59,778 nt of DNA, taken from assembly GCA_016744395.1 (NCBI GenBank), contig JADGEK010000021.1, positions 1 through 59,778 on the forward strand, read 5' to 3'. This document shows positions 98 through 18,875 of the stretch, in pieces. A model generated the notes under the pieces. That model was given only the letters and a program-made list of their open reading frames with translations. It was not told the origin of the DNA and ran no database searches. Made by a program: the position numbers and the translations under genes. Every line of letters begins with the position of its first letter. Within the stretch, counting starts at the first letter, position 1. This DNA is from Gammaproteobacteria bacterium (GTDB lineage Bacteria; Pseudomonadota; Gammaproteobacteria; GRL18).

Positions 98-210
98 GTC
101 GAGCGATCGGGATCTTTTTTTTTAGTGACTTCTGGCGAGGGAGCTTGGGGCTCTATCAAAATAAGCTTTATTCTTGTTTTGTACTGATATATGCTCCAAA
201 ATAGATTGAT

Positions 211-1164: not shown

Positions 1165-1175
1165 GAGTTAAAAAA

Positions 1176-1952
1176 GTGAATTGTATATTAATAGATGCTG
1201 GTAATAGTTTTTTAAAAATTAGTTTAATTGACCGTTTCGATGATTCTGATCTTAGTTATAATATTTTAGATTACTCAAACTTATATGATGATTTACTTGA
1301 TAAATTTCATGATGTCATAGCCTCACAAGTTATTATCTGTAATGTTAGCAATCCTGTTAATTACCATATTATTTCTGATGCCATTTACAAAATCTGGCGT
1401 ATAAATCCACATCTTATTCAGGTTGAGCAAAACTCATATGGGCTTTCTACTCGATACACTAACCCTAGAGTTTTAGGAAGTGATCGCTGGGTTGCTATGA
1501 TAGCTGCGCTTACTGAGTTCAAAACTAATCTTTGTGTGGTTGATTGTGGAACTGCAGTCACTGTTGATGTTGTTACAAAGACGGGCATGCATATTGGAGG
1601 CTTCATTACACCAGGGCTAAAAACATCTCGTCTTTCACTTGGTCTAAAGGCCAATAATCTTCCATCTGTTGATAATAATGATGAAAACATTAATAATGAA
1701 ACTTCAATTTTGGCAATAAACACTCAAGATGCAATTTTAGGTGGTACGCTTTATCAAATTAGTGCTTATATTGAGCGTATTGTCTCAGAAATTAAGCTTG
1801 AGTTTGGTGAAGATATAGAGTGTATTATCACTGGAGGTGATGCCGATAAAATACAGGCACTCACTTGCCACCATTTTCATCATAGAGAAACACTCGTATT
1901 GGATGGATTAAGAATTGTGGCACAGAGACTATTTGAGAAGGTTAGAAAATGA
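1176..1952 (+). CDS. coaX: Type III pantothenate kinase
   Basis: Phosphorylates pantothenate in the first step of coenzyme A synthesis (ASKHA fold). Family marks are the N-terminal DAGNSFLK phosphate loop, GSDRWVAM, the VDCGTAVTVD motif with its catalytic Asp region, GGFITPG, and TGGDA near the C-terminus. A GTG start at 1176 is preferred because GAGAG lies 9 bases upstream and the protein then begins directly before the conserved ILIDAGN strand. A TTG at 1161 overlapping the birA stop is the alternative. It overlaps the next gene by four bases (ATGA), so translation is probably coupled. The birA-coaX pairing is common in gammaproteobacteria. Confidence 0.92.
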   Translation: MNCILIDAGNSFLKISLIDRFDDSDLSYNILDYSNLYDDLLDKFHDVIASQVIICNVSNPVNYHIISDAIYKIWRINPHLIQVEQNSYGLSTRYTNPRVLGSDRWVAMIAALTEFKTNLCVVDCGTAVTVDVVTKTGMHIGGFITPGLKTSRLSLGLKANNLPSVDNNDENINNETSILAINTQDAILGGTLYQISAYIERIVSEIKLEFGEDIECIITGGDADKIQALTCHHFHHRETLVLDGLRIVAQRLFEKVRK

Positions 1953-2713
1953 AGTGGTTGTTTATTGTTGTTGCGTTGCTTAATATTGCATATGGTGCAT
2001 ATAATTTATTTTTTGCACAAGGTTCAAAATTAAATAGTAGCAATGTTGCTTTAGCAGATAAAAGTCAAATTGTAAAATTAAATGAGTTAGATGCTAATGC
2101 TCTAAAAGAACTACAGGATAAGGTTTTACCATCCAAACAAATTATAGATGAAATTGAAGTTTCAGAGTCAATAGATGAGCCCAATGAAATAGAAACTATC
2201 GTAGATATTATTCAAGATAGCGTTCCCGAGAATGAATTAAATTTAGAAGAAAATCTTTGTTATAAGCTTGGACCTTTTACAAAAAGTGTTATGAATGATA
2301 TTCGTTCTTTACTGGAAGTTGAATATAAAAATCAACTATCTTTTGGTATTGAAACAACATCAGATATCACTTATTACCGAATATATATTCCTCCCATACA
2401 AGACAAAGCAAAAATAAAGGAAACACTGGCTAACTTGGATAAGAATAATCTTAAAGATCATTATGTGATGTCAATTGATGGTCGAAAAAATGCCATTGCC
2501 TTAGGTGTTTTTAAAGAACGCAGTGCTGCAGAAACGGTTGCCAGTCAAGCTGCAAAAATTGGTTTGTCTACTACTATAGAAGCAATCAGCGATGACAAAA
2601 ATAGTCTCTATCAACTGATGGTTATTTTTCAAAAAGGTCAAGAAACTAATCGTTATCAGGAAATTATATTACAAAAAGAACTTATTTCTGTCCAGTGCGA
2701 CAATAAGGGTTGA
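1949..2713 (+). CDS. SPOR domain-containing membrane protein
   Basis: The N-terminus is one hydrophobic segment (about residues 3-22, WLFIVVALLNIAYGAYNLFF), followed by an acidic, low-complexity linker (about 40-95). The C-terminal third, containing YVMSIDGRKNAIALGVFKERSAAE, resembles a SPOR domain, which binds denuded glycan strands of peptidoglycan at septa. It is therefore probably an inner-membrane anchored protein with a periplasmic SPOR domain. A SPOR protein often follows coaX in this gene order. No enzymatic role is visible. The tRNA-Thr promoter begins over its stop codon. Confidence 0.75.
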   Translation: MKWLFIVVALLNIAYGAYNLFFAQGSKLNSSNVALADKSQIVKLNELDANALKELQDKVLPSKQIIDEIEVSESIDEPNEIETIVDIIQDSVPENELNLEENLCYKLGPFTKSVMNDIRSLLEVEYKNQLSFGIETTSDITYYRIYIPPIQDKAKIKETLANLDKNNLKDHYVMSIDGRKNAIALGVFKERSAAETVASQAAKIGLSTTIEAISDDKNSLYQLMVIFQKGQETNRYQEIILQKELISVQCDNKG

Positions 2714-2737
2714 TCAGTTCAATAGAGTCTGTATAAT
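2710..2737 (+). promoter_or_regulatory. Sigma-70 promoter of tRNA-Thr
   Basis: TTGATC (2710-2715), a 16-base spacer and a perfect TATAAT (2732-2737) lie just upstream of the tRNA. The bases after the -10 box (ACGCGC) form the GC-rich discriminator typical of stable-RNA promoters under stringent control. The -35 box overlaps the stop of the SPOR gene. Confidence 0.65.
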
Positions 2738-2759
2738 ACGCGCATCAACATTATTTAGT

Positions 2760-2835
<76 letters not shown>

Positions 2836-3202
2836 TTTCTAAGTCTTTTAAAAAAGTAACTTCAATTATTTTATAATTAAGTCAAATTCAATTGCTTCTA
2901 TAATATCCAATCTAAAGTTCAATTTTCTACAAAAAAATAACAAAACAAATGCATTACTCATTATTATGAGAGATTAATCCTTTTTTTGTAACGCTTGTCA
3001 TTTATGTTCTGAATAGCTGGCTAACAGAGCCTTCAGGCATAATTTCTTCCAGCTTATCAAGAAAAGCATTAAGAGATTAGCACTGAATAACCTTTGATTT
3101 ATTCCTTAAGCTGAATACGAACTCGTATGTCATCAGTGTTGAATTTGTTAGCGTTTTGTTAAAGTCAGATATATTACAGTTTCACGGAAGGAAAGTATTT
3201 GT
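2836..3202. other. Intergenic gap at a synteny break
   Basis: These 367 bases hold no convincing gene, RNA or strong terminator. On the minus strand a stretch of about 24 codons (roughly 3004-3075) is open and ends in a stop, but nothing in it is recognisable. A weak Shine-Dalgarno sequence (GGAAGGAAAG, 3186-3195) serves the ligase start at 3203. This is where tuf and its neighbours would be expected. Confidence 0.5.
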
Positions 3203-4147
3203 ATGATTTCAGGGTTTGATTGCAATCGAGTGACAGAAATATCGGGTAAAATACCTGCACTTTTTTTTAGTTTATCCATGGGTCTTTTTTTGTGGACTTT
3301 AGCTCAACATGCCCTTGCTAGCGGGATAGTTCTGGAAAAGTCAGAACGTCCGCAATTAATATTACTGAAATCCTATCACAAGGGGATGGATGTAAAAAAC
3401 TGGTCTATGAGCGAAAAGCTTGATGGTGTCAGAGCATACTGGAATGGTCAAACTTTGTATTCACGCAGTGGTAGAAAAATTGCTGCACCGAAGTGGTTCA
3501 CCAAAGATTTCCCAAACTTTAAGCTGGATGGTGAATTGTGGACAAAAAGGGGTGACTTTGAACATATTACTTCGATTGTAAATAGGCATAAACCGCATAA
3601 TGGCTGGAAGCAAATCACTTATGAGATTTTTGAAGTGCCTGATGCTCCTGGAAGTTTTCCAGAGAGATTAAACCGAATTAAATCCTGGCAACAACAACAG
3701 CCATCCCAATATATTCATATTGTTGACCAATCTGTTTGCAAAGGCCCATCACATTTGCAATCATTTCTTAGTGAAGTGGAACAAAAGGGCGGTGAAGGCG
3801 TGGTGATCAGAAATCCTGATTTACCCTATCATACTGGACGAAGTCAAACGTCACTCAAAGTCAAAAGTTTTCAAGATGCTGAATGTCAGGTGACTGGCTA
3901 TAAAAAAGGTCGGGGAAAGTTCATCAGGATGACTGGAGCACTTTATTGCCAGATACAGGACCAGAGAGTTATTAGCATTGGCAGTGGTTTATCAAATGAA
4001 GAAAGGGCCAATCCACCGCCTATTGGAAGTATTGTTACCTATAAACATAATGGCTATACATCAACAGGAAAACCTCGTTTTCCAGTTTACCTGCGCATTA
4101 GAATAAAAAATGAGACACATGACGATCATGCGACCAAGAAAAAATAA
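3203..4147 (+). CDS. ATP-dependent DNA ligase with signal peptide (LigE type)
   Basis: A minimal ATP-dependent DNA ligase. Motif I is EKLDGVRAYW, with the Lys that is adenylated. Later motifs are SRSGR, LDGELW, YEIFEV, GGEGVVIRNP and LKVK. The C-terminal OB-fold part ends in YKHNGYTSTGKPRFPVYLRIR. The first 40 residues form a hydrophobic signal peptide with a plausible cut after HALAS, so the protein is probably periplasmic, as proposed for LigE enzymes linked to DNA uptake or extracellular DNA. It lacks extra N-terminal DNA-binding domains. Decayed helicase sequence follows. The fold is secure; the biological role is inferred. Confidence 0.87.
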   Translation: MISGFDCNRVTEISGKIPALFFSLSMGLFLWTLAQHALASGIVLEKSERPQLILLKSYHKGMDVKNWSMSEKLDGVRAYWNGQTLYSRSGRKIAAPKWFTKDFPNFKLDGELWTKRGDFEHITSIVNRHKPHNGWKQITYEIFEVPDAPGSFPERLNRIKSWQQQQPSQYIHIVDQSVCKGPSHLQSFLSEVEQKGGEGVVIRNPDLPYHTGRSQTSLKVKSFQDAECQVTGYKKGRGKFIRMTGALYCQIQDQRVISIGSGLSNEERANPPPIGSIVTYKHNGYTSTGKPRFPVYLRIRIKNETHDDHATKKK

Positions 4148-4187
4148 AACATCAAAGAAAAGAATCAAGAAGAAAACAGCAGTTTCA

Positions 4188-4991
4188 ATGGCTACAGGAT
4201 GGCTGACCACGGATGAAGAAGAAATTCAGCGTCGCCGGTTTACGCTCAATGGAAGAAAAACTGACGGTAAAAATAATAGTGTCTGAAGACTATAAAGCTT
4301 CCTCCATCTATACTGATTATATTATCTCATCTATGAGTGATATGGGTTCTGGCTCACAATATAAAGTAGAATATTGAGATAAAAAACAACGAATCAACAC
4401 CTGTGATTGTCCAGCTCACCAAATTGATGGTCTAGCCACTTGCAAACATGTTGAGCGGGTTTTACTATTTCTTCTATGAAAATAAATTCCAGCCAATCTT
4501 TAAAAAAGATCATTATTTAACCGATATTTCACAGTGAAATCGCGCCGATTGTCTGAAAACCTATCAAAAAAGTTCATTTTTTACCTATGTAATTATCAAC
4601 AGCTTCTCTACGATCATGAGGCGATTTAAAGCATTCTTATTCCAGGTGTGATCACTCTTGTTGAAGTGCAACGGATTAAAAACTGGCAGTTGAAAACAAC
4701 ACAGGTAGTAAAGTGACTGCAAAGTCCCTATTTGTTTGTTTTGACAGGGATACCACTGGAATTGTCCGTGTCCTGCCAGTATCAGATCCAGATAGGAAAA
4801 GTGGAGGAAACCGTTGATTTATCTATTATTGAACAACAATAATTCCTCGTTTTAAAATACCTGGTGAGGTATTAACCATTCGGGCTAGTTTCAGAGAAGA
4901 CAGTGACATTCACAAAAAAGGAGCCATGATATTATTACAGCATCTATTACAAATGGTGGATGAGCAGCTACTGAATCAACTTTTGCCATAA
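4188..4991 (+). pseudogene. Remnant of a SNF2-family helicase with SWIM zinc finger
   Basis: No intact gene lies between 4148 and 5393, but helicase fragments remain in order on the plus strand. Codons from 4188 read MATGWLTTDEEEIQRRR and stop at 4284. A SWIM finger (CDC...TCKH, 4402-4449) lies downstream, with an in-frame stop just before it. At 4663-4686 the codons read EVQRIKNW, a decayed form of the SNF2 motif II (DEAQRIKNW). In the same frame after a TGA, SPYLFVLTGIPLEL (from 4723) matches motif III (LTGTPLEN). The stops, frameshifts and large internal losses show a dead gene. The last part (4840-4991) is open but not recognisable, so the end is approximate. Confidence 0.75.
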
Positions 4992-5250
4992 ACTGTTGTC
5001 ATTAATTCGTCATCTTCAAGGTTTAAACTTTGAATGTGATGAATTCAAACAGCTTAAATGTTGATGGAACTATAACCAGCCATTCACAAAATAGCGTACT
5101 TTTCCAGAGCTTAGCAAAAATGAATAAGACGGCTACCAGTGGAAAACAAACCGATAAAAGTCTGCAATAATGTGAAGAATCCTATAACTAAATTACATGG
5201 AAATACAGGTATTCAATGCACTCATCCCTGATTGTGTGTATTCTTATTGT

Positions 5251-5267
5251 TGTAAAAAAAACTGACA
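5251..5267 (-). promoter_or_regulatory. Candidate regulator site, TGTCA-N7-TTACA motif (copy 1)
   Basis: On the minus strand these bases read TGTCAGTTTTTTTTACA. The 17 bases, and one more beyond, are identical to the site at 19149-19165 in front of the PEP-CTERM gene. The site lies about 125 bases upstream of the first gene of the priming-transferase/prs operon. The half sites form an imperfect dyad. The binding protein is unknown; PrsR is the obvious candidate because it is encoded here. Confidence 0.55.
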
Positions 5268-5269
5268 TA

Positions 5270-5336
5270 AAGTGTAAAAAATCTAGACAATGTAGTCTTT
5301 TACTGTCATTAATTCTAAACTCAATATGTTACACTT
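5270..5336. repeat. Inverted repeat AAGTGTAA / TTACACTT
   Basis: AAGTGTAA (5270-5277) and its perfect inverse TTACACTT (5329-5336) flank 51 bases in front of the gene at 5394. The spacing is about five helical turns. It may be a paired operator or chance in AT-rich DNA. Confidence 0.3.
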
Positions 5337-5393
5337 AATTACCTATGATGATAAAGTTTTCATGGAAGTTCAATAATATGGTGTTATTACGCA

Positions 5394-6773
5394 ATGGTTA
5401 GAATTTTTAAGCACTACATTCCATTTAGCCTGGTTTTTGTTGGACTATTTGAGGCTTGCGTCTTTTTTTCTTCAGTACCTATTGCAAGATACATTAACAA
5501 ATATGATGTTAATCAGTTTAATGGTTTTTTTTATACAGAGTTTATTTATACTCTTATCGTTATTCTTTCTATTGCTGCAGCGGGTTTATATAGCAGACAT
5601 CTACGAGAAAACTTAAGAGGGGTGGTCTTCAGGGTTATTTTAGTTCTTACCTTTGTTTTTTTCGTTATGAGCTTTTTGTTTTACCTTCATCCCGCATTAT
5701 TCACTGCAAGGACTTCTTTTATTTATGCGCTAATGATTACAGGTGGCACTTTGATCATTACTCGTACATTTCTTTTTTTCTTTATTAATCAAGAGTTTTT
5801 TAAGAAACAAATTATTGTCTATGGTGCGGGGAAAAAAGCGTCACATCTTAATGAATTACGTCGAAAATCAGATACCAGGAACATAAAACTGGTAGGCTTC
5901 ATTCCCATTGAAGGTCAAGAGGTCGTTGTTGGAGAAAATCAACTTGTTGATTTACCAAGTGGCTTGTTTTCATATATTTCTGTCAATAAAATCGATGAAA
6001 TAGTGGTTGCAATTGATGACCGCAGAAAAAACTTTGCTGTTGATGAAGTGCTTGAGTGCCGGGTAAAAGGAATTGAAATTATTGATATTTCAACATTCTT
6101 TGAGCGTCAGACTGGACGAATTAAACTGCATGCATTACACCCGAGTAATCTTATTTTTTCGGATGGATTTATACAGGGAGGCTTAGACCTCTATATTAAA
6201 CGAGTTTTTGATGTATCGGCATCTCTTCTATTATTGTTGCTCACTTGGCCAGTAATGCTTATAACAGCCTTTGCAATTATGTTTGAATCGGGCTTTAAAG
6301 GGACTATTTTTTATAGGCAAATACGAGTTGGACTTTTTAATAAAAACTTTGAAGTGTTTAAATTTCGCAGTATGAGTATGGATGCGGAAAAAAATGGTGC
6401 CCAATTTGCACAAACATCCGATCCCAGAGTAACAAAAGTTGGTGATGTGATACGTAAGTTTCGAATTGATGAACTGCCGCAACTGTATAATGTTTTAATC
6501 GGTGATATGAGTTTTGTTGGCCCAAGGCCAGAGCGTCCTGAATTTGTAAAAGATCTTTCAGAGACGATTAAATATTATGAAATCAGGCACTATGTTAAAC
6601 CAGGTATCACTGGTTGGGCTCAAATTTGTTATCCTTATGGTGCAACAGAGGCGGATACTCGTAATAAACTTGAATATGATCTTTACTATATGAAAAATTA
6701 CAGTATTTTCTTAGATATCATGATATTACTACAAACAATTCAAGTGGTGATCTGGCGTCAGGGTTCTCGATAA
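5394..6773 (+). CDS. Priming polyprenyl-phosphate sugar transferase, PEP-CTERM/XrtA system type
   Basis: Starts polysaccharide repeat-unit assembly by moving a sugar phosphate onto undecaprenyl phosphate at the inner membrane. The N-terminal half has four to five membrane segments (residues 10-135), then a nucleotide-binding-like domain (IIVYGAGKKA). A further membrane-dipping helix (about 270-298) leads into the catalytic domain, with the conserved region FRSMSMDAE (324-332), FRIDELPQLYNVLIGDMSFVG and GPRPERPEF (from 376). The length of 459 is usual for this class. It is the first gene of a unit with prsK and prsR, whereas the other polymer genes lie 29 kb away. No strong Shine-Dalgarno site is visible. 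Confidence 0.9.
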   Translation: MVRIFKHYIPFSLVFVGLFEACVFFSSVPIARYINKYDVNQFNGFFYTEFIYTLIVILSIAAAGLYSRHLRENLRGVVFRVILVLTFVFFVMSFLFYLHPALFTARTSFIYALMITGGTLIITRTFLFFFINQEFFKKQIIVYGAGKKASHLNELRRKSDTRNIKLVGFIPIEGQEVVVGENQLVDLPSGLFSYISVNKIDEIVVAIDDRRKNFAVDEVLECRVKGIEIIDISTFFERQTGRIKLHALHPSNLIFSDGFIQGGLDLYIKRVFDVSASLLLLLLTWPVMLITAFAIMFESGFKGTIFYRQIRVGLFNKNFEVFKFRSMSMDAEKNGAQFAQTSDPRVTKVGDVIRKFRIDELPQLYNVLIGDMSFVGPRPERPEFVKDLSETIKYYEIRHYVKPGITGWAQICYPYGATEADTRNKLEYDLYYMKNYSIFLDIMILLQTIQVVIWRQGSR

Positions 6774-6797: not shown

Positions 6798-8975
6798 ATG
6801 AACATCGAGAGCTATAATATCTATAGCTACCTGTTAGCGACTGTAGCCTATGGTGCATTGTTGTTACTTAGCCTCTGGGGCATCAAAAGATACACCTCAG
6901 GCCTTACATTTTTTATTGCGGTCTTTTTTTCGTTGGTCTGGTCAGCTTATACTTCATATAATCTGTATAGTGAAGAACTTTATTCATCAAGTATCTTACC
7001 ATTTGAAACGATTCGAAACCTATGCTGGTATATCTATTTATTAGCCATGCTAGGCAATCTTGAACGGCAAAAAACACACACTGAAAATACCATTCGCAGT
7101 GAATTTACCTTCTTATTAAATACAAACTACAGCCTATTTCTTCTTGTAGGCTGCCTATTTGTTTTCGTTGCTGAATTGATACCTGAATTAATGTTTCAGC
7201 TTAACCACTGGTTAGGTATGGATTTCAGGCTTTTGTCCCACGTATCCTTTGCAATTATTGGCCTCATCTTAATTGAACAACTCTATAGAAATTCAGTCAC
7301 AGAACAACGTTGGGCAATAAAATTTATCTGTCTTGGTCTTGGTGGCCTTTTTACCTTTGATTTTATCATCTACAGCAAATCCCTGCTCTTTGCTGATATT
7401 GACATCATGCTCTGGAATGCTAGGGGAGTTGTGAATGCCCTGATTGTCCCCTTGCTGGCAATTTCTGTGGTTCGACTACAAGAAGAATCAAGAGCCTATA
7501 CAATTTCAAGGAAAGTTATTTTTCATACCTCTGCATTGGTTGGAACAGGACTGTATCTTATTTTTATGTCAATGGCAGGCTTTTATATTAAGAAATTTGG
7601 TGGAAACTGGGGGGAAGTTGCCCAAATACTGTTTATTTTTCTGGCATTATTACTCTTGCTTGCACTGATGTTTTCAGGCGCAATGAGAGCTCGTTTAAAG
7701 GTTTATTTTAACAAGCACTTTGTGCATTATCGTTATGATTATCGTGAAGAATGGATAAAGTTGAGTAAGACTCTGGCTGAATTGAAATCAATCAATGAGT
7801 TGTCTCCTTTTATGATTAAAACGCTTGCTGATTTAGTTGATAGTTCAGGAGGTGGTTTATGGGTTCAAAATGAACAGGGGGATTATTATCTTGCTGAGAC
7901 ATTAGTTCATGGTTTTGATGGTAGTGGTCTGGAATTAATAGCCCAGGATGATGATTCAGTTCAATTTTTACAAAAAAAACAGTGGGTCATCGATTTGTTT
8001 GAATATGATGCTGCTCCTGAAGTCTATGAGCAAGCCAATTTTTTTCCATGGACTGAAAATAATAATGATATTTGGTTACTAATTCCTCTTTTACAACAAA
8101 ATGAGCTTAAAGCTTTTGTGGTATTAACAAAACCCAGAGTGCCTAGAAAACTAAACTGGGAAGATCATGACCTGCTCAGAACAGTTGGTATGCAATTGGC
8201 CAATGCCTTTATTTTGAGTCAGGCCAGTGAAGAATTATCCACAGCAAGACAATTTGAGGCCTATAGCCGTTTGTCAGCCTTTATTATTCATGATTTAAAA
8301 AATCTGGTTGCTCAGGTTTCACTCGTAGTAAAGAATGCTGAAAAGCACAAACATAATCCTGAGTTTATAGATGATGCCATTGATACGCTGGAAAACGTAG
8401 TAGTTAAAATGCAAAAATTAGTTCAGCAACTCAGACAACGGAATGTTAAGGATGAGCAATCTGCACTTGATTTGGTCAGTGTCATAAAAGACATTATAAA
8501 ACAACAGTCTGCCCACTCCCCAGTACCTCAATTTCAAACCGAGTTGACGGAATGTTTCATCATGGGTGAACAAGAAAAAATTTCAGCGATATTAGGGCAT
8601 CTGGTACAAAATGCCCAGGATGCAACCGAAGATAATGGTTCAATAATTTTAGAGCTGATAAAAAATAATGCTTTACCTGGTGCTTCACAAAAGCAGGATG
8701 CAATAATAAAAATTACGGATACAGGGAGTGGAATGGATAGAAAGTTTATTTCAGAGCGTCTTTTTAAACCCTTTGATACAACAAAAGGCAATGCTGGCAT
8801 GGGTATTGGGGTTTATGAAGCAAAGAGTTATATTTTAAAACATTCAGGTACTATTTCAGTTGATAGTAAAGTAGCACATGGCACAACATTTATTATTCAT
8901 TTACCAATGGCTTCTGAAAAAGTAAATGTGCCAGAGAAACAATCTGTTGAAGATGTTAAAGGGGGAAAAGAATAA
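6798..8975 (+). CDS. prsK: Membrane histidine kinase PrsK (PEP-CTERM system)
   Basis: Sensor kinase expected to phosphorylate PrsR. The N-terminal 300 residues contain about eight hydrophobic segments. A GAF-like region follows (about 330-475), then the dimerisation/phospho-acceptor box FIIHDLKN with His498, and an HATPase domain with N box HLVQNAQDA, G1 DTGSGMD and G2 GNAGMGIGVYEAK. The architecture and H-box match PrsK kinases of exosortase loci, which with PrsR and RpoN control PEP-CTERM genes. The stop codon abuts the GTG start of prsR, so the pair is co-translated. The signal sensed is unknown. Confidence 0.92.
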   Translation: MNIESYNIYSYLLATVAYGALLLLSLWGIKRYTSGLTFFIAVFFSLVWSAYTSYNLYSEELYSSSILPFETIRNLCWYIYLLAMLGNLERQKTHTENTIRSEFTFLLNTNYSLFLLVGCLFVFVAELIPELMFQLNHWLGMDFRLLSHVSFAIIGLILIEQLYRNSVTEQRWAIKFICLGLGGLFTFDFIIYSKSLLFADIDIMLWNARGVVNALIVPLLAISVVRLQEESRAYTISRKVIFHTSALVGTGLYLIFMSMAGFYIKKFGGNWGEVAQILFIFLALLLLLALMFSGAMRARLKVYFNKHFVHYRYDYREEWIKLSKTLAELKSINELSPFMIKTLADLVDSSGGGLWVQNEQGDYYLAETLVHGFDGSGLELIAQDDDSVQFLQKKQWVIDLFEYDAAPEVYEQANFFPWTENNNDIWLLIPLLQQNELKAFVVLTKPRVPRKLNWEDHDLLRTVGMQLANAFILSQASEELSTARQFEAYSRLSAFIIHDLKNLVAQVSLVVKNAEKHKHNPEFIDDAIDTLENVVVKMQKLVQQLRQRNVKDEQSALDLVSVIKDIIKQQSAHSPVPQFQTELTECFIMGEQEKISAILGHLVQNAQDATEDNGSIILELIKNNALPGASQKQDAIIKITDTGSGMDRKFISERLFKPFDTTKGNAGMGIGVYEAKSYILKHSGTISVDSKVAHGTTFIIHLPMASEKVNVPEKQSVEDVKGGKE

Positions 8976-10346
8976 GTGGCTAAAGAAAAAAAAATATTGC
9001 TGATTGTTGAAGACGATCCTGGGCTTCAAAAACAATTGAAATGGAGTTTTGAAAACTATAAAGTCATTATTGCAGGTGATAGAAATGAGGCTATTACGGC
9101 ATTAAGAAGGCATTCTCCCTCTGTTGTCACACTGGATTTAGGCTTACCACCAGACCCTGCAAATGCCAGTGAAGGTCTGGCAACCTTAAAAGAAATCCAG
9201 GAATTATTGCCACAAACCAAAGTGATTGTAGTGACAGGTAATGATGATAGAGAGGTCGCTGTTCAAGCTGTTGCAATGGGTGCCTATGATTTTTATCAAA
9301 AGCCTATAGAAATTGATACCCTTAATCTTATTATTGAACGTGCGTTTAACCTGGATGCCTTAGAAAAAGAAAATAAGCGTTTATCTCATACAGCTGATGA
9401 ACCCTTAGACGGTATGATTGCTGTGAGTAAGCCAATGCTGGATCTTGCTCGTACAGTCGAAAAAATTGCACCCAGTGATGTGACTACTCTACTTCTAGGA
9501 GACAGCGGAACGGGTAAAGAGTTGTTGGCAAAAGCGCTTCATAATCTTAGTTCAAGAAAAAATAAAGCATTTGTTGCAGTTAATTCGGCTGCAATACCAG
9601 AAAATCTACTGGAAAGTGAATTATTTGGTTATGAAAAAGGGGCATTTACTGGGGCTGTAAGACAAACCAAGGGCAAAATTGAATATGCAGACAAAGGTAC
9701 CTTTTTTCTCGATGAAATTGGTGATTTACCAATGGCATTGCAGGCAAAACTCTTACGTTTTTTACAAGAAAGAACAGTAGAGCGGATTGGTGGGCGTACT
9801 GAAATACCAGTTGATATTCGAGTGGTTTGTGCCACTCATCAAAACCTTCAAGATTTAATTGCGCAAGGGCAATTCAGAGAAGATCTTTATTACCGCTTAG
9901 CAGAAATGACAATTAATATACCAGCTTTGAGAAATCGCGAAGGTGATTCTATCGTTATTGCGACGGCTTTTGCTAAGCGCTTCAGTGAGCAACAGCATAA
10001 AAAAATTAAAGGCTTCACAAAAGATGCAGCTCAAGTTATAGAAAACTACAGTTGGCCTGGGAATATTAGAGAGCTTGAAAATAAGGTCAAGCGAGCAGTT
10101 ATTATGTCAGATGGTATTCATATCACGGCCGAAGATTTAGAATTGAGCGTTGAACAAGAAGACTCCTCATTACCACTTAACTTAAAAGAAGTTAGAGAAG
10201 TTGCAGAAACATCAGCAATCAAGCGTGCATTGAGTTATGCTGATAATAATGTCTCTAATGCCGCAAAATTGTTGGGAGTAACAAGGCCAACACTGTATAC
10301 GCTTTTTAATAAATATGGAATTCAAGTTAATAGTGTAGAAAATTAA
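8976..10346 (+). CDS. prsR: Sigma-54-dependent response regulator PrsR
   Basis: Activator of RNA polymerase carrying sigma-54. The receiver domain has the acidic pair at 12-14 and phospho-acceptor Asp54 (VVTLDLGLPPD). The AAA+ domain has Walker A GDSGTGKE (175-182), the sigma-54 contact loop GAFTGA (222-227) and Walker B GTFFLDEIGD. The C-terminus is a Fis-type helix-turn-helix (NVSNAAKLLGVTRPTLYTLF). GTG is the start, preceded by AAAGGGGGAAAAG. A sigma-54 promoter in front of the PEP-CTERM gene (19241) and the shared 17-bp motif nearby are plausible targets; this link is inferred. Confidence 0.94.
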   Translation: MAKEKKILLIVEDDPGLQKQLKWSFENYKVIIAGDRNEAITALRRHSPSVVTLDLGLPPDPANASEGLATLKEIQELLPQTKVIVVTGNDDREVAVQAVAMGAYDFYQKPIEIDTLNLIIERAFNLDALEKENKRLSHTADEPLDGMIAVSKPMLDLARTVEKIAPSDVTTLLLGDSGTGKELLAKALHNLSSRKNKAFVAVNSAAIPENLLESELFGYEKGAFTGAVRQTKGKIEYADKGTFFLDEIGDLPMALQAKLLRFLQERTVERIGGRTEIPVDIRVVCATHQNLQDLIAQGQFREDLYYRLAEMTINIPALRNREGDSIVIATAFAKRFSEQQHKKIKGFTKDAAQVIENYSWPGNIRELENKVKRAVIMSDGIHITAEDLELSVEQEDSSLPLNLKEVREVAETSAIKRALSYADNNVSNAAKLLGVTRPTLYTLFNKYGIQVNSVEN

Positions 10347-10407: not shown

Positions 10408-13176
10408 ATGAAAAGGTTTAACCAGGTTATCACTGCTAGTATTTTTACATTACTTTTTATTTTTTCTGTGAATAGCCATGCATCAAACTATGTTGTGGAT
10501 GCAAAAAAAAATATAGCAAATGGTGAGTATAAAACAGCTATTATTCAGTTAAAAAATTATTTGAAAGAATCTCCTGATGATGCCCAAGCTCGTTACTTGC
10601 TTGGGATGAGTTATCAAAAAAGTGGTAACCTTGCAGGAGCATCTAAGGAATTTGAAAAAGCTTACAAGACGAATAAAAATGATCACAAAATACAGTTGGC
10701 TTATGCAAAAATTTTAAAATTAAAAAATAAAGAACAAGCTAAGAATATCCTGCTACAAAACTACGAAGATAATTCAGATGAAAGCCAGAGGTTGGTCATC
10801 CTTGCTGAAATTGCATTAAGTGAGAATAAATTAGCGGATGCTACAGAGTTGTTAAAAAGAGCAGAAGAGTTAAATAATACTGCTGAAGTGCAGTTAGCTT
10901 TTGTGACATTGGCTATTGTGGAAAAAGATGGAGCTGGAGCTGATAAAAGATTAGAAGAGATCTTAAAAAAAGACAATAAAAATAAAACCGCCTTATTTTT
11001 AAAGGCAATGAGATTCAGTAATAAAAATGAACTCCAAAAGTCACTGGACATTTTTGATCAACTTTATAAAGAATACCCAAATGATCTACGATTTTTGCTT
11101 GAGAGAGCTGGGGTAAAATACAAGAAAAAAGATTATGAAGGTGTGGAGCAGGACTTATCTGTTATTCTCAATAAGAACAAAAACTTTCCTCAAGCAAATT
11201 CATTGATGTCATTGAGCAAGTTGCAACAAAAAGACTATAAGTCAGCTAGAGAGTATACCCAAAAAGTTCTTAATATTTTACCAGATCATTCCCTTTCATT
11301 ATTTGTTAGTGGTGTGTCTGAATTTGCCCTTGGAAATTTGAATCAAGCTGAGAAAGCTTTGAATCAAGTTTTGTTCAAATTTCCAGATAATCTTGAAGCT
11401 CAAAGTATTTTATCGTCTTTATACATTGCAAAAAAAGAGGGTGAGCAAGCACTGTTGATTCTGGAATCAATAGATAAAGACACTATAGAAAAAAATGCCA
11501 AATTATTATTGAATCTTGGTACTGCTTATTTATTAATAGGTGAACATGAAAAAGCAATGCTGGCATTAAATCAAGCAAAAAAAATTGAACCAGATAATAA
11601 ATTAGTCAATGAAAGACTCGTTGTAGGTTACTTCAAATCGAAAGATATGAAAAATGCCATAGCAAGTTTAGAGAGCATTGCTGCGGACAAGAAAAATATG
11701 CAGGCTCAATATTTGCTTGTTATGACCTATATTCAAAATAAAGAATTTGATAAAGCAAAAGAAACAATCAAGCGATTGAAAATACAATCACCCAATGATC
11801 CTAACTTACATAATTTTGAAGCTGCCTTGCATTTGATCAATAAAAATATAGAATTAGCATATTTATCCTATCAGCAGGCAATTAAACTAGATGCCAACTA
11901 CATACCAGCCTATTTGGGTATTATCAGGATTCATATGGATAAGAATGAATATGACATTGCTGATAATTTGTTTGAAAAAATATTAAGTACTAATAATAAA
12001 TACATAAAAGCCTGGTTAGGAAGAGCTGCTATTGCTGAAAAAAAAGGGGAGGCTGAGAAGGTTGAATTTTTTATCACAGAGGGCTTAAATCATTCTAAAG
12101 GCGAGGTTAAATCTGAGCTGATTGCTCTGACGCAGTTGGCAAAATGGTACAACAGGCAGGGGCAGAAAGAGAAGGTCTTAGAATTAGGTCGTGAGATAGT
12201 ACAACGTTACCCAAATAATGCAACAGCTCAGTTTTTTCAAGTGAAAGCACTATTACTTAATGGAAAAAGCCAGTCAGCAGAAATGGCTTTAGAAAAGCTA
12301 CTTTATAATGACTCTGAAAATCGAACTTATCAATTATTGTTAGTTCGTTTGATGGTAGAAAAAAAAGATAATCAGAGAGCTTTCCATTTATTAGATAATA
12401 TCCTTAAGTCTAATTCAAATGATAGACAGGCAATGCTGTTGAAAGGTAAATTATTAGCATTAGAAGGGCAAAATAAAAAAGCAATTGAAACTAGTCGGCT
12501 CTACCAACAAGTCTTTCCTGAAGGTTCGGCTGGTTTTCAATTAGAGGCTGATGTCCTTTTAGCAGAAAAAAAATATGAAAAGGCACTGGTAAAATATCAG
12601 ATAGCATTTAAAAAAACAGCAAGCGATCAATTATTACTAAAAATAGTAAGCTTACTTATCAAACAGAAGAAAACCGATGAAGCAATTGAGTTTTTGACTG
12701 ATGTGATTACTGGGGATAATGCCAATATTATTGCACGTTATCGTTTGGCCGTATTATTACAGAAACAACAGAAAAATGAACTGGCAATTGAGCAATACAA
12801 GGCATTAATTTCACTTGAACCTAGCAATGTTTTGGCGCTAAATAATTTGGCATGGATGTTATCGGAGAAGGGTGATGGAGATGCGTTAAAATTGGGAAAA
12901 AAAGCTTATGAGTCAGCTCCAGATTCTCCAGCAATCCTTGATACTTACGGCTATATCTTACTGAAAGAAAATCACCTGGAAGAGGGCACAAAATTACTAC
13001 AAAAAGCTGTAGAATTAGCGCCAAAAGCCTATGATATTCATTATCATCTCGCAAAAGCCTACTTTTTAGCTGGAAAGACTCAAAAAGCTAAAAATGTACT
13101 GAGTCTTGTTTTAAATGAAGATGCTAATTTTTCTGAAAAAGAAAATGCAAAAAAACTATTTAATCAGTTACAATAG
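10408..13176 (+). CDS. prsT: PrsT-like TPR repeat protein of the PEP-CTERM system
   Basis: A 922-residue exported protein. A signal peptide (ITASIFTLLFIFSVNSHAS, about 8-26) lacks a lipobox Cys, so signal peptidase I cleavage is likely. The rest is nearly continuous tetratricopeptide repeats (ARYLLGMSYQKSGNLAGASKEF, ALNNLAWMLSEKGDGDALKL and many others; at least 20 by eye). TPR superhelices of this type scaffold polysaccharide or protein export across the periplasm. Its place after prsK/prsR and its size match PrsT. AGGAAAG lies 6 bases before the ATG. It is lysine- and asparagine-rich. Confidence 0.88.
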   Translation: MKRFNQVITASIFTLLFIFSVNSHASNYVVDAKKNIANGEYKTAIIQLKNYLKESPDDAQARYLLGMSYQKSGNLAGASKEFEKAYKTNKNDHKIQLAYAKILKLKNKEQAKNILLQNYEDNSDESQRLVILAEIALSENKLADATELLKRAEELNNTAEVQLAFVTLAIVEKDGAGADKRLEEILKKDNKNKTALFLKAMRFSNKNELQKSLDIFDQLYKEYPNDLRFLLERAGVKYKKKDYEGVEQDLSVILNKNKNFPQANSLMSLSKLQQKDYKSAREYTQKVLNILPDHSLSLFVSGVSEFALGNLNQAEKALNQVLFKFPDNLEAQSILSSLYIAKKEGEQALLILESIDKDTIEKNAKLLLNLGTAYLLIGEHEKAMLALNQAKKIEPDNKLVNERLVVGYFKSKDMKNAIASLESIAADKKNMQAQYLLVMTYIQNKEFDKAKETIKRLKIQSPNDPNLHNFEAALHLINKNIELAYLSYQQAIKLDANYIPAYLGIIRIHMDKNEYDIADNLFEKILSTNNKYIKAWLGRAAIAEKKGEAEKVEFFITEGLNHSKGEVKSELIALTQLAKWYNRQGQKEKVLELGREIVQRYPNNATAQFFQVKALLLNGKSQSAEMALEKLLYNDSENRTYQLLLVRLMVEKKDNQRAFHLLDNILKSNSNDRQAMLLKGKLLALEGQNKKAIETSRLYQQVFPEGSAGFQLEADVLLAEKKYEKALVKYQIAFKKTASDQLLLKIVSLLIKQKKTDEAIEFLTDVITGDNANIIARYRLAVLLQKQQKNELAIEQYKALISLEPSNVLALNNLAWMLSEKGDGDALKLGKKAYESAPDSPAILDTYGYILLKENHLEEGTKLLQKAVELAPKAYDIHYHLAKAYFLAGKTQKAKNVLSLVLNEDANFSEKENAKKLFNQLQ

Positions 13177-13268: not shown

Positions 13269-14537
13269 ATGACTATCAAAATGTCAATAAAGTTAATCAT
13301 TGCACGTACAGCAAAAGAGCTGGATGATGTCTTTAGATTGCGCTATGAAGTCTATGTCCTTGACAAAGGAAGATTTTCACTTGATGCGGCATCAAATGAA
13401 AATAAATTTAGAATCGTTGACCGTTTTGACACTATTCCTGATGTGGCTAACATTATTGCTTATGAAAATGGTGTGCCTGTTGCCTGTATGCGTGTAAATA
13501 GAGACTCTGAAATAGGCCTTCCTGCTGAAGTTCACTTTGATTTTTCTAGTTGTAGAGAAAGAATTAAACAGGAGTGTGAAGAAAGACAAATTAATCAGGT
13601 CATTGTTAGTGGCGGCATGCTGGCCATTAAAGAAAAGTGGCGGAATCAAAGAAATATTATTCATGCGATGTTTAAAACAGCGATAAATATTATGCATGGT
13701 CTTGGTGCCTCTCACTTGATTACTTCTGTGAGTGAAGTGACTCAATCCCTCTATGGAAGAATGGGACTTGAAGTGGTTGGAGAATCTAAGTGGTGTGAAT
13801 CGATAGGAGATAATTTAGTGCCTATGGTTGCGTCATTTGATAAAATTATTAAATGGGGATTTGGTGACCTTAACAAGGAAGGATACTCTATCTGGCTTGA
13901 TGGCCTGAACGATTACTATGAACGCATTGTGCTCTCGGCGGGCGAGGTGTTGTTTTATCAGGGCGATATTGCTGAAAATGCTTATGTGATAGAAGATGGC
14001 TGGCTCTCGGTTTCAAGGACCGATAAGAATGATAATGAACTGATCTTATCAAATCTTTCTAAAGGTGAATTATTTGGTGAATTAGCACTTTTTGATCAAA
14101 AGCCCAGATCAGCCACAGCAACAGCATTGACGAATGTCGAAATTAATGTGATACCCAAAAAATCTTTTTTAACAATGATTAAAAATAACCCAGAAAAAAT
14201 GGGTACTTTACTTAGTTATTTTTCAAAGCGATTACGTGATATGGATGAGCAAGCCATGATGCATGTTTTTGCACCTCAGACGGCACGTATACAGTTTGAA
14301 CTGAAAAAAATATGGCAGTCAGCCCCTCCTGATAGAAAGCTTCCTGATACTCGTACAGCAAAGGTTGGACCAAAACAAATTGCGAGTTCTGCACATGTAC
14401 ATATCGAAGATGTTATGCTCAATCTTGAGCAAGAAAAAACTGAAGGGAACTTAGAATATAGCCAAAAAACGATTCGTTTTTTTAAATCCCCTATTATTAG
14501 TTCGGAAAATACCCCACAGTTACACATAGACAGTTGA
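13269..14537 (+). CDS. N-acyl-synthase-like acyltransferase fused to cyclic-nucleotide-binding and Crp-like HTH domains
   Basis: Three parts are visible. Residues 5-190 look like the GNAT/autoinducer-synthase-type fold of long-chain N-acyl amino acid synthases (FRLRYEVYVLDKGRF, later VACMRVNRDSE, ITSVSEVTQSLYGRMGLEVVG). Residues about 210-335 are a cyclic-nucleotide-binding domain with an intact phosphate cassette GELFGELALFDQKPRSA (from 266; Arg280). Residues about 340-410 (ARIQFELKKIW, then GPKQIASSAHVHIEDVMLNL and GNLEYSQKTIRFF) resemble the winged helix of Crp. ATG 13281 has AGGA 11 bases upstream and may be the true start. The domain reading is mine; substrate and ligand are unknown. Confidence 0.75.
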   Translation: MTIKMSIKLIIARTAKELDDVFRLRYEVYVLDKGRFSLDAASNENKFRIVDRFDTIPDVANIIAYENGVPVACMRVNRDSEIGLPAEVHFDFSSCRERIKQECEERQINQVIVSGGMLAIKEKWRNQRNIIHAMFKTAINIMHGLGASHLITSVSEVTQSLYGRMGLEVVGESKWCESIGDNLVPMVASFDKIIKWGFGDLNKEGYSIWLDGLNDYYERIVLSAGEVLFYQGDIAENAYVIEDGWLSVSRTDKNDNELILSNLSKGELFGELALFDQKPRSATATALTNVEINVIPKKSFLTMIKNNPEKMGTLLSYFSKRLRDMDEQAMMHVFAPQTARIQFELKKIWQSAPPDRKLPDTRTAKVGPKQIASSAHVHIEDVMLNLEQEKTEGNLEYSQKTIRFFKSPIISSENTPQLHIDS

Positions 14538-14538
14538 A

Positions 14539-15480
14539 TTATTTTTTTACTGTTTTCAGTATGGATTCCAGAGATATAAGATCCACAAGAGATCTGAATA
14601 AAATCGCATTATTTCTCACTAGCCCGTAACATTCATACGTTTTTATATTTGTCTCCGTTTTCTTTTCCTGAAGATGGATTAATATATGCAATATATCATT
14701 ACTTTTTAAAGTGGATAACAATTGACGATCAACACTTATTTTGTGTGAAAGATAGACCATCGGCGAACGCTCAAAGTCCAGGCCATTTTGCATGAATTTT
14801 TCCAGTAAAGCACAGGAAATAAACGCACAAGGAAAAATCTCGGGGAACTGGTACTTATTCTCTAATTCATCAAAAAATAGTCGTTGATCGACCATAGAGC
14901 CACACAGAAAATTTTTAGCATTACTGACATTAATAAACTTCCTTTTTAAAAAGAAGCTATTTTTTTTTCCCAAAATATTAGCTTTAATAAAGCTACGATC
15001 AGCATACGTTTTCAAAGCTTCAAAATTTCTATTAAAATCTGGCTCGGGTAAAAATAAAGGTAGTTGCGTTTCTTTTTTAAAGCCAATTAAAGCCAGTTTG
15101 TCCCCTGCTTTGACACTGACTCTATTGCTTAATGAGGGTGGAGTAATGTCTGTTGATTGAGCTATTGTCGTTTGTTTTACATCGACACAGATCCCCTGCC
15201 CAGGTTTTATCGCATTAGCAAAAGAAAACTGATAATTACTAAAATTCAGATTATTCTTAATAATAAAGTTATTTTCATTATTAATTTGTCGATGATGATA
15301 AATTTTATTCTCAATTAATGATTCTATTTGAAAGCCAAGCACAATCGGCCCCTTAAAAGGATTTTGTAAAATCCTTGACCATTTATGGCTGTCATGAAAT
15401 AAATTAAAGTCATCTGTAGCATTGCGTGCAACATCAATGTGAATTTGACTAAATTGTTCGTGGTTTGTTTGAGAGACCAT
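14539..15480 (-). CDS. MaoC-like hotdog-fold protein
   Basis: A 313-residue cytoplasmic protein. Residues 13-55 fit the MaoC/hydratase signature (DVARNATDDFNLFHDSHKW then NPFKGPIVLGFQ), where Asp and His usually hydrate enoyl thioesters. A second, weaker hotdog-like half may follow (about 185-310: CAFISCALLEKFM...PMVYLSHKISV). The exact active-site pattern D-x-N-x-x-H is altered to D-F-N-L-F-H, which keeps N and H. It could act on acyl-CoA or acyl-ACP feeding the neighbouring acyltransferases. It is convergent with the gene before it (1-base gap) and divergent from the next one. Confidence 0.6.
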   Translation of the reverse strand: MVSQTNHEQFSQIHIDVARNATDDFNLFHDSHKWSRILQNPFKGPIVLGFQIESLIENKIYHHRQINNENNFIIKNNLNFSNYQFSFANAIKPGQGICVDVKQTTIAQSTDITPPSLSNRVSVKAGDKLALIGFKKETQLPLFLPEPDFNRNFEALKTYADRSFIKANILGKKNSFFLKRKFINVSNAKNFLCGSMVDQRLFFDELENKYQFPEIFPCAFISCALLEKFMQNGLDFERSPMVYLSHKISVDRQLLSTLKSNDILHILIHLQEKKTETNIKTYECYGLVRNNAILFRSLVDLISLESILKTVKK

Positions 15481-15622: not shown

Positions 15623-16096
15623 ATGAATAATATCCTTAAAGATATACTGGATGATCCACACTTTTCAGAAGGATCAGCTTGGAAGCGGCGCTGTTTTCGT
15701 CATAATGAAATAATTGTCGAAGAAGGTCAGGATGGTGGTTCTTTATTCTATATTGAAGAAGGGCAATTAAGAGTGGCAGGTAATATTGAGCTTGAGGAAC
15801 ATAAACACATTCAGCCTGGAATTTGGGAACTTGAAAAAGGTGAAATTTTTGGTGAAATTGCACTGTATGAGTCACAGCTTCGAACTGCCTCGGTACGTGC
15901 AACATCAGATGGTTGTCTAGTGGAAATTGATGGCGAAAAGCTAGGCATTTATCTGGATGCTCACCCTTCTCTTGGTTACCTGTTTTATAAAGATTTGTTT
16001 GAAATACTCATTGGTCGGTTGAGCCGAGCCAATCATCGAGTGAATGATCTCTTTGCATGGGGTTTAAAAGTCCATGGCATCGAGCAGCATTTATAA
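15623..16096 (+). CDS. Stand-alone cyclic-nucleotide-binding protein
   Basis: 157 residues, nearly all one cyclic-nucleotide-binding beta-barrel. FRHNEIIVEEGQDGGSLFYI opens the domain, and the phosphate-binding cassette is GEIFGEIALYESQLRTAS, with Arg87 in the ligand-binding position. No DNA-binding or enzyme domain is attached. The next gene starts 23 bases before this one ends, so the two products are probably made together and may form a complex. The neighbouring fusion at 13269, which joins the same two functions in one chain, supports this. Confidence 0.8.
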   Translation: MNNILKDILDDPHFSEGSAWKRRCFRHNEIIVEEGQDGGSLFYIEEGQLRVAGNIELEEHKHIQPGIWELEKGEIFGEIALYESQLRTASVRATSDGCLVEIDGEKLGIYLDAHPSLGYLFYKDLFEILIGRLSRANHRVNDLFAWGLKVHGIEQHL

Positions 16097-16859
16097 TCTT
16101 ATGAAAGAGAAGCAGCATGATAATGGTTTAACCCTGGCCCAAACCTTTCAAAAGTACTTTTCAATTGAGCTGGCAAATACCCCAGAATTGAAACAGAAAG
16201 CCTATAATATTCGATACCATGTTTATTGCAAAGAATTTGAATATGAATCCATTGATTCTTGCCCCAATGAAATGGAAACAGATGAATATGATGATTCTTC
16301 ATTACATTGCTTGATTATCCATAATGAAACGAATATCCCAGCAGCATGTGTCCGACTTGTACCAGCAACTGGTAGTGACTTAATCTTTGACTTATTGCCT
16401 TTTGAAAAGTATTGCTCAAGCAGCCTTGATAAAGAATTTATTAAGCAATTACATTTGGACAGAAATACAGAATGTGAAATTTCACGATTGGCGGTTGATG
16501 GAATCTTTCGCAAGCGTTCAGGTGAAGCTTTAACACGATTTGGTGATGTCAATCTGGAATTTTCCAAAGAAGAACAACGTACTTTTTTGTTGATTGCTGT
16601 GGCTGCATTTCTTGCCGCAACGGTATTGACTGAGCTATCAGGTAAGACCAATGTGTTTGCTATGATGGAACCCTTTTTACCCAGATTGTTAAGGCGTTCA
16701 GGTCTTATATTCCAGAGAGCGGGAAAGGATATTGACTACCATGGGATCAGAGCCCCCTATTTTATAACCACACAGTCTGCATTGGACAACATGCGTCCTG
16801 AACTACTAGAGCTGTATCATTGGATACATCAAAATATAGAACCTTCGTACTTAAAATGA
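16074..16859 (+). CDS. PEP-CTERM/exosortase system-associated acyltransferase
   Basis: A GNAT-like acyltransferase of the family found beside PEP-CTERM loci and related to long-chain N-acyl amino acid synthases. Visible marks: KQKAYNIRYHVYCKEFEYE (start of the LuxI-like fold, about 44-62), CLIIHNETNIPAACVRLVPA, and the conserved CEISRLAVDGIFRKR (about 142-156). The alpha-helical tail includes TNVFAMMEPFLPRLLRRSG. Expected reaction: transfer of an acyl group from acyl-ACP or acyl-CoA to an amine. The ATG at 16074 overlaps the upstream gene; ATG 16101 is an alternative but has no better ribosome site. Confidence 0.88.
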   Translation: MASSSIYNLMKEKQHDNGLTLAQTFQKYFSIELANTPELKQKAYNIRYHVYCKEFEYESIDSCPNEMETDEYDDSSLHCLIIHNETNIPAACVRLVPATGSDLIFDLLPFEKYCSSSLDKEFIKQLHLDRNTECEISRLAVDGIFRKRSGEALTRFGDVNLEFSKEEQRTFLLIAVAAFLAATVLTELSGKTNVFAMMEPFLPRLLRRSGLIFQRAGKDIDYHGIRAPYFITTQSALDNMRPELLELYHWIHQNIEPSYLK

Positions 16860-16886: not shown

Positions 16887-18875
16887 ATGGATAAAATTTT
16901 GCAATCGACTTTTCATTACGGGACCGCTTTTTCCAGAAATATTGGCTGGGTAACTGAAACTGAACAGGAAATATTGCGTAATAAACGAATTGCAATTGCT
17001 GGTTTGGGTGGTGTTGGTGGAAGTCATCTGATCACATTGACTCGTCTGGGTATTGGAAAATTTAACATTTCTGACTTGGATATTTTTGAGCTAGCTAACT
17101 TCAACCGTCAGGCGGGTGCGGCTATAAGCCATATTGATCGTAGCAAAGTTGATGTTATGGCTGAGCTGGCAAGAGATATTAATACTGAGTTAAATCTGAA
17201 GACTTTCCCTGAAGGAGTGAGTAAACAAAATCTGGATGAATTTTTAGAGGATGTTGACCTTTATGTTGATGGCCTGGATTTTTTTGCTCTGGAAGCCCGA
17301 AAAGCTGTTTTTGCTGCTTGCGCAGAAAAAGGCATTCCTGCTGTGACTGCTGCACCTCTTGGGATGGGTGTTGCCTTATTATGTTTTCTGCCAGGAAAGA
17401 TGTCCTTTGAAGAATACTTTCGTCTCAATGGACAGACAGAGGATGAACAGTTACTCCGTTTTCTTATGGGCTTGTCTCCTGCAATGCTACAAATGTCTTA
17501 TTTAGTGGATGATAGCCGAGTGGATCTGGATAATCATAAAGGCCCATCGACTCCCATGGCATGTGAGCTTTGCGCTGGCCTGGCAGCGACCAATGCTTTA
17601 AAAATCTTGCTTAATAGAGGTAATGTTATTGCGGCCCCAAATGGCTTGCATTTTGATGCCTTTCGCAATAAATTTTCAAAAACCTGGCGTCCCTGGGGGA
17701 ATAATAACTGGATTCAACGTCTGGGTATTGAAATTGTTCGTAATAAACTGTCAGAAAATTTAACAATGCCTAAAGTGACCTCAGAAGAAATCATATTAGA
17801 TACACCCATTGCCCGTATTCTTGACTTGGCTCGTTGGGCACCTAGTGGCGATAATACTCAGCCCTGGCGTTTTGAAATATTGGATGAGCATTCTTTTTTG
17901 ATTTACGCTAATGATACCAGAGACTGGTGTGTTTATGATTTAGATGGGCGGGCTAGCCAGACAGCAGTGGGAGCCTTATTGGAAACAATACAAATTGCGG
18001 CATCGAAAGAAGGGTTGAATGTCAGTTTTAATCAGACAGAAAAATCCAGTGAAGAAAACCCGATTATTGAGGTTAAACTGGTTAATGCGGCGGGTGAGCA
18101 AGTTACAGATCTTTTATTTCCCTTTATTAAAATTCGTTGTACTCAGCGCAGAGCTTTGTCTGGCAAAGTTTTAACCCAATCTGAAAAGGAACAGCTTGAA
18201 GCATCTGTTGGTGATGGTTTTAAGCTCATCTGGTTAGAAGGTCAATCAAACAAATGGCAAATGGCCAAACTACTTTTTAGAAATGCTCAGATCCGCTTAA
18301 CAATCGAAGAAGCCTATAAAGTACATAAACGAATTATTGATTGGAATTCACAGTTTAGTAAAGACAAAATCCCAGACCGAGCAGTCGGGCTTGATCCGTT
18401 TTCATTAAAAATGATGCGCTGGGCCATGCAGAGTTGGGAGCGTGTCACAATGCTTAATACCTGGTTTGCAGGAACATGGATTCCCCGCATTCAGTTGGAT
18501 TTGTTGCCAGCAATGCAATGTGGTGCACATTTTATTATTGTTTCAGATAACAAACTGGAAACTATAGATGACTATATTTCTGGTGGTCGGGCAATGCAAC
18601 GATTTTGGTTAACCAGTGCCCGTTTAGGATTACAATTTCAGCCAGAAATGACACCTTTAATATTTTCTCGGTATGTTAATGAATCAGAAAATTTCACACA
18701 ACCTTTCACAAAAAACACACAGGCTTATCAGCAAGCAGAAAAATTGGCTGTTGATTTAGAAATTATAGTGGGGAAAAAGATTAAAGGATATTCCGTTTTT
18801 ATGGGGCGAGTGGGCAAAGGAAGAATACCCATTTCCCGCTCCATTCGACTATCGATAGGTGAATTACAAAAATAA
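16887..18875 (+). CDS. ThiF-family (E1-like) adenylyltransferase fused to nitroreductase
   Basis: A two-domain protein of 662 residues. The N-terminal half is an E1/ThiF Rossmann domain: IAGLGGVGGSHL (about 36-47), the Arg of NFNRQ, VDGLDFF, and a CELC pair near 225. E1-like enzymes adenylate carboxylates. The C-terminal half (from about 300) is a flavin nitroreductase fold, with LARWAPSGDNTQPWRFEI as FMN-binding start and SGGRAMQRFWLTSARLGLQ. The fusion suggests carboxylate activation plus a redox step on one small molecule, probably the product of the upstream acyltransferase (27-base gap, same strand). The substrate is not known. Confidence 0.85.
   Translation: MDKILQSTFHYGTAFSRNIGWVTETEQEILRNKRIAIAGLGGVGGSHLITLTRLGIGKFNISDLDIFELANFNRQAGAAISHIDRSKVDVMAELARDINTELNLKTFPEGVSKQNLDEFLEDVDLYVDGLDFFALEARKAVFAACAEKGIPAVTAAPLGMGVALLCFLPGKMSFEEYFRLNGQTEDEQLLRFLMGLSPAMLQMSYLVDDSRVDLDNHKGPSTPMACELCAGLAATNALKILLNRGNVIAAPNGLHFDAFRNKFSKTWRPWGNNNWIQRLGIEIVRNKLSENLTMPKVTSEEIILDTPIARILDLARWAPSGDNTQPWRFEILDEHSFLIYANDTRDWCVYDLDGRASQTAVGALLETIQIAASKEGLNVSFNQTEKSSEENPIIEVKLVNAAGEQVTDLLFPFIKIRCTQRRALSGKVLTQSEKEQLEASVGDGFKLIWLEGQSNKWQMAKLLFRNAQIRLTIEEAYKVHKRIIDWNSQFSKDKIPDRAVGLDPFSLKMMRWAMQSWERVTMLNTWFAGTWIPRIQLDLLPAMQCGAHFIIVSDNKLETIDDYISGGRAMQRFWLTSARLGLQFQPEMTPLIFSRYVNESENFTQPFTKNTQAYQQAEKLAVDLEIIVGKKIKGYSVFMGRVGKGRIPISRSIRLSIGELQK

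Follow-up and report, generated by a model that had tools for sequence, protein, structure and literature searches.

The window, meaning the whole stretch of 59,778 nucleotides that was analysed, is an XrtA/PEP-CTERM exopolysaccharide locus, and the gene that concerns us, a fusion of an acyltransferase domain with a Crp-like module, comes after prsK, prsR and prsT. The genes needed for the argument are as follows:

6798–8975, + strand: PrsK, XrtA/PEP-CTERM histidine kinase, a conserved neighbour (NCBIfam TIGR02916)
8976–10346, + strand: PrsR, PEP-CTERM response regulator, a conserved neighbour (NCBIfam TIGR02915)
10408–13176, + strand: PrsT, XrtA/PEP-CTERM TPR protein, immediately upstream of the fusion (NCBIfam TIGR02917)
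13281–14537, + strand: FeeM-like/cNMP-binding/Crp-type winged-helix fusion protein, 418 aa
15623–16096, + strand: stand-alone cNMP-binding protein of 157 aa, its gene overlapping that of the following acyltransferase (Pfam PF00027)
16074–16859, + strand: PEP-CTERM/exosortase-associated acyltransferase with the catalytic Glu kept (ECEISRLAV; TIGR03694)
16887–18875, + strand: ThiF and nitroreductase-type oxidase fusion, OxzB/TrzS-like, of the acyl-oxazolone pathway type (family matches; PMC10404671, PMC12856293)

The open reading frame at 13269–14537 (+) is genuine. A start at 13269 would give a protein of 422 aa; since the homologues begin with MSIK at the in-frame ATG at 13281, the latter is probably the true start, and our residue numbers follow the resulting 418-aa protein. 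The promoter scan gave no excess over the shuffled expectation, and the terminator scan found weak terminator-like sites alone.

Several other features of the surroundings deserve mention. Some 1.1 kb past the fusion, the genes at 15623–16859 make up another cNMP/acyltransferase pair, this one split, which recurs in the closest relatives (L013 and L014), and the ThiF–nitroreductase fusion at 16887–18875 suggests that an acyl-oxazolone-type lipid is made in this XrtA/PEP-CTERM locus. A 313-aa protein encoded at 14539–15480 (−) also occurs in L060 and, 66% conserved, beside the L014 fusion; it has no match in Pfam or NCBIfam, its structure model reaches a pLDDT of 34, and a by-eye likeness to a hotdog/MaoC-like enzyme was supported by neither family match nor model. 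The locus also holds a 1302-aa NRPS-like protein (28148–32056), and the window contains a patatin/NTE-type phospholipase with two cNMP-binding domains (32187–34394, −); in L065, a similar patatin/NTE-type protein stands directly between a fusion gene and a TIGR03694 acyltransferase. In L016, a locus of the cultured relative Aestuariicella hydrocarbonica JCM 30134, two consecutive large PrsT-like TPR frames (127–5913) lie upstream of the fusion gene.

Three domains in one chain

The initial annotation had described a single chain made of an autoinducer-synthase-like acyltransferase, a cyclic-nucleotide-binding domain with an intact phosphate cassette (its Arg280 being Arg276 here) and a tail reading like the Crp winged helix. 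Profile searches of each third and the predicted structure bear out this description, with the following parts:

13326–13832, + strand: FeeM/LuxI-type GNAT acyltransferase domain, residues 16–184 (Pfam PF21926; fold match to FeeM 2g0b, Z 19; hhalign)
13608–13610, + strand: Ser110, where FeeM has its catalytic Glu95 (alignments; role of the Glu from PMC4897644)
13929–14189, + strand: cyclic-nucleotide-binding domain, residues 217–303 (Pfam PF00027; Foldseek to CRP/GlxR/NtcA)
14064–14126, + strand: phosphate-binding cassette GELFGELALFDQKPRSATATA, residues 262–282, in which Glu267 and Arg276 do not vary among 22 homologues
14277–14480, + strand: Crp-type winged helix, residues 333–400 (AlphaFold; structural match; tail-only hhalign)
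14403–14441, + strand: degenerate recognition helix, residues 375–387, with Ile375 at the CRP Arg180 position

Pfam identified residues 16–184 as FeeM (E 9e-19, 68 bits against a cut-off of 27) and did so in each of the 22 family members used for the residue conservation counts, and hhalign aligned this domain with stand-alone FeeM proteins at E 1.5e-17. Residues 217–303 matched cNMP_binding at E 2e-25 (89 bits, cut-off 27.5). The tail had no Pfam match in the window protein, and HTH_Crp_2 was found in two of the 22 members; the NCBIfam CRP model, however, runs on through the tail (226–401 in the 422-aa numbering), and a profile made from just the tail is aligned by hhalign with Crp-like proteins (E 6.7e-6, probability 85%). 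No PilZ domain was matched in the fusion, its C-terminal part being the cNMP-binding domain and the winged helix, and the protein stays under the curated TIGR03694 cut-off (18.5 vs 111.95 bits).

The AlphaFold model, built with an alignment of 13 sequences, has a mean pLDDT of 80 and a pTM of 0.76. The tail is modelled as a helix at 333–347, helices at 364–371 and 375–387 and strands at 391–393 and 398–400, with a pLDDT of 72–91 for this helix, helix-turn-helix and wing. The best Foldseek matches of the model are CRP, GlxR and NtcA. With VIA-align, residues 1–195 superpose on FeeM 2g0b with a Z of 19.0 over 174 residues, and NtcA, CRP and FNR on mostly residues 193–413 with a Z of 16–18 over ~190–218 residues, such that the N-terminal part is predicted to have a GNAT/FeeM-like fold and the C-terminal part to end in a winged helix. 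It is thereby confirmed that one chain holds a bacterial FeeM/LuxI-type GNAT, a cNMP-binding domain that is intact and a winged helix of the Crp type; judging from the model, the last two form one complete Crp module and not two separate acquisitions.

Genome searches yielded ~24 homologous ORFs with the same domain order, 34–69% identical, from Aestuariicella, Cellvibrionaceae, Sedimenticola, Chromatiaceae, Ectothiorhodospiraceae and other Gammaproteobacteria; one contig labelled Chryseobacterium also bears the fusion and may be misbinned. The family is uncommon in the sampled genomes: roughly a dozen of 369 genomes of the class had FeeM matches in frames of ~400–520 aa, which turned out to be the fusion, and sampling across the phylum brought in nothing further but a two-domain protein, L056. 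A tree of the N-terminal domain places the fusions in one group, together with one truncated member (L044), the fork at its base having a support of 84/99 and being unstarred. L056, with FeeM and cNMP domains and no winged helix, branches just outside the group (support 98/90), and three more distant FeeM–cNMP proteins (L050, L054 and L070) also lack the winged helix. That two genes were joined by chance or by an artefact, through misassembly or frameshift, has a negligible probability, because the same order recurs in the ~24 independent homologues, in many genera and with no internal stops, and these form one clade but for the truncated member.

Nucleotide pocket and DNA-reading face

All 22 fusions have Glu and Arg at the positions of CRP Glu72 and Arg82; the Ser83 position is Ser in 19/22, and the Ser128 position, in the C-helix, is Asp in 19/22. 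The genome carries the gene of a class I adenylate cyclase and also encodes class III cyclase domains, five or six in number. Given the invariant pocket residues, a coupling of the fusion to cyclic nucleotide appears well supported.

The alignments show a winged helix that keeps its core residues but has lost its DNA-reading face. A368, L382 and F400 are invariant, and V373 and G389 are kept in 20 of the 22 members, while the position of CRP Arg180 is Arg in none of them and Glu in 16, that of Lys188 is mostly Glu and that of Arg169 mostly Pro; the CRP contact set of Arg180, Glu181 and Arg185 was not found in the 22 fusions. In the true Crp of the host genome (L071), position 169 has the CRP residue, and Arg180, Glu181, Arg185 and Lys188 are all retained, in agreement with E. 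coli CRP. A complete Crp module, winged helix included, in a regulatory gene neighbourhood could point to a trigger enzyme, that is, an acyltransferase doubling as a Crp-family transcription factor and bound to DNA when the cyclic nucleotide rises, but the loss of the contacts, their retention in the genome's own Crp and the branching of the wingless L056 just outside the clade make this reading quite improbable. The DNA binding that the initial annotation had thought possible is thus disfavoured: with the recognition-helix contacts gone across the family, it is unlikely, and the winged helix has probably been retained for dimerisation or allosteric transmission.

The acyltransferase site and its neighbours

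Synthases of the FeeM type rely on a Glu in their fourth strand (Glu95 of FeeM itself), and the equivalent change in Nas354, E103A, abolished activity-dependent phenotypes (PMC4897644). In the fusions, this position is Ser in 19/22 and acidic in 0/22, and we rejected the idea of a catalytic Glu hidden by misalignment, the family multiple alignment, the alignment with FeeM 2g0b and hhalign all giving Ser110. Other residues of the domain are kept: R21, D47, D50, R71 and R121 in all 22 members, as is Y158, the GNAT thiolate-protonating Tyr, and R124 in 21. Many ordinary GNATs, moreover, function without a Glu at the FeeM Glu95 position. As the FeeM catalytic Glu is missing, N-acyl-amino-acid synthesis by the fusion is no more than likely. 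Of the earlier suggestion that such synthesis is coupled to the cyclic-nucleotide level, the nucleotide part appears well supported by the pocket Glu and Arg, and the synthesis itself is plausible by fold and neighbourhood.

The absent Glu is equally what a non-catalytic regulatory subunit would show, its FeeM-like domain binding an acyl donor, an N-acyl amino acid or a partner TIGR03694 acyltransferase and reporting the cyclic-nucleotide level to that partner. A Glu-containing acyltransferase is indeed close by, in the window as well as in the closest relatives, and the one in the window (16074–16859) adjoins the ThiF/nitroreductase gene. Such a subunit would hardly explain why Tyr158, D47, D50, R71 and the basic residues of the donor loop vary little or not at all, and it loses force from the ordinary GNATs that work without that Glu and from genomes in which the presumed partner was not found; we consider it unlikely, though deserving of more weight than the trigger enzyme.

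The genomes in question are G258, G169 and G280, where the fusion adjoins ThiF or ThiF/nitroreductase genes. As no TIGR03694 protein that reaches the cut-off was found there, the fusion is the obvious local acyltransferase, and this context is the best argument for its putative activity. A ThiF protein and a nitroreductase-type oxidase beside an N-acyltransferase are the signature of acyl-oxazolone synthesis known from OxzAB, TyzABC and TrzAS (PMC10404671, PMC12856293), and similar genes accompany producers of N-acyl dehydrotyrosine (PMC12479983). Across the 22 other fusion loci, with flanks taken as retrieved and several of them ended by contig ends, ThiF and/or nitroreductase homologues were present in nine and prsK/prsR homologues in ten.

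Proposed function and known systems

On balance, and with modest confidence, we favour a FeeM/LuxI-group acyltransferase that responds to cyclic nucleotide through its Crp-like module and feeds a PEP-CTERM-associated lipid pathway. In such a protein, cAMP, possibly cGMP, would bind the Crp-like module and alter how active the N-terminal acyltransferase is. This domain would most likely take a fatty acyl chain from acyl-ACP or acyl-CoA and attach it to an amino acid, while the winged helix, no longer reading DNA, would probably help in dimerisation or in passing on the allosteric signal. The product would then pass to the neighbouring ThiF and nitroreductase-type enzymes, which would turn it into acyl amino acids of the dehydro or oxazolone type with a tie to the XrtA/PEP-CTERM exopolysaccharide locus. 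We infer that the protein binds nucleotide and is catalytic, and likewise the direction in which it is regulated, its substrate and the pathway that follows; the FeeM fold, the kept GNAT residues and pocket, the cyclase genes, the prsK/prsR and ThiF/nitroreductase neighbours and the precedent of the cAMP-activated NasP argue for an enzyme of this kind, and the never acidic Glu95 position and the Glu-intact acyltransferase already beside the ThiF/nitroreductase gene argue against it. More tentatively, the fusions may be a family of cyclic-nucleotide-gated acyltransferases in PEP-CTERM loci whose FeeM site can do without the canonical Glu and whose Crp part, once a transcription factor, now serves, winged helix included, purely as an enzyme-regulating module.

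The initial annotation knew of no described protein with this domain order, which puts the novelty too strongly. NasP, an N-acyl(phenylalanine) synthase, is directly activated by cAMP, as stated in the title of Clardy and Brady 2007 (J Bacteriol 189:6487) cited in PMC4897644, and NAS–PilZ fusions were described in 2016 (PMC4897644). NasP is likewise proteobacterial, and its direct activation by a cyclic nucleotide is what we propose for the fusion as a putative N-acyl amino acid synthase; a literature search for text on the domains of NasP found none. Nas343 and Nas354 resemble the fusion in joining an N-terminal FeeM-type NAS to a C-terminal second-messenger domain but differ in that this domain is PilZ, for c-di-GMP, and the catalytic Glu is present (PMC4897644). 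FeeM itself (PDB 2g0b), an acyl-ACP-dependent N-acyltyrosine synthase, shares the N-terminal fold and PF21926 but has Glu95 in place of Ser, and its solved 198-residue chain is without a regulatory module. In OxzA, TyzA and TrzA, a FeeM/LuxI-like acyltransferase similarly stands beside ThiF and a nitroreductase-type oxidase, but the available parts of the reports mention no cyclic-nucleotide module (PMC10404671, PMC12856293). From the regulatory side, CRP, GlxR and NtcA have the cNMP-binding domain, C-helix and winged helix in the same order, whereas the fusion has lost their recognition-helix DNA contacts and places an acyltransferase domain first. Mycobacterial Pat, a cAMP-regulated protein lysine acetyltransferase, also combines a cNMP-binding domain and a GNAT in one chain, but in reverse order (cNMP N-terminal to GNAT) and with an ordinary GNAT; the Pat model NF058543 covers the cNMP part of the fusion only (46 bits vs a cut-off of 460).

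The fusion is a widespread variant within a group that already includes NasP, a cyclic-nucleotide-regulated synthase, and the NAS–PilZ fusions; its missing Glu and its full Crp module, with a DNA face that has degenerated, may be new, although NasP could share both. To our knowledge, NasP has so far been one isolated cAMP-switched synthase. The fusions, by contrast, are a conserved family of single chains, with an intact nucleotide pocket and with PrsK/PrsR/PrsT and ThiF/nitroreductase genes nearby, and offer a direct, assayable second-messenger link to an envelope-associated lipid pathway. They also look like a Crp transcription factor turned enzyme-control module. If the more tentative reading is true, acyl-amino-acid or oxazolone lipid synthesis would be under direct cAMP/cGMP control.
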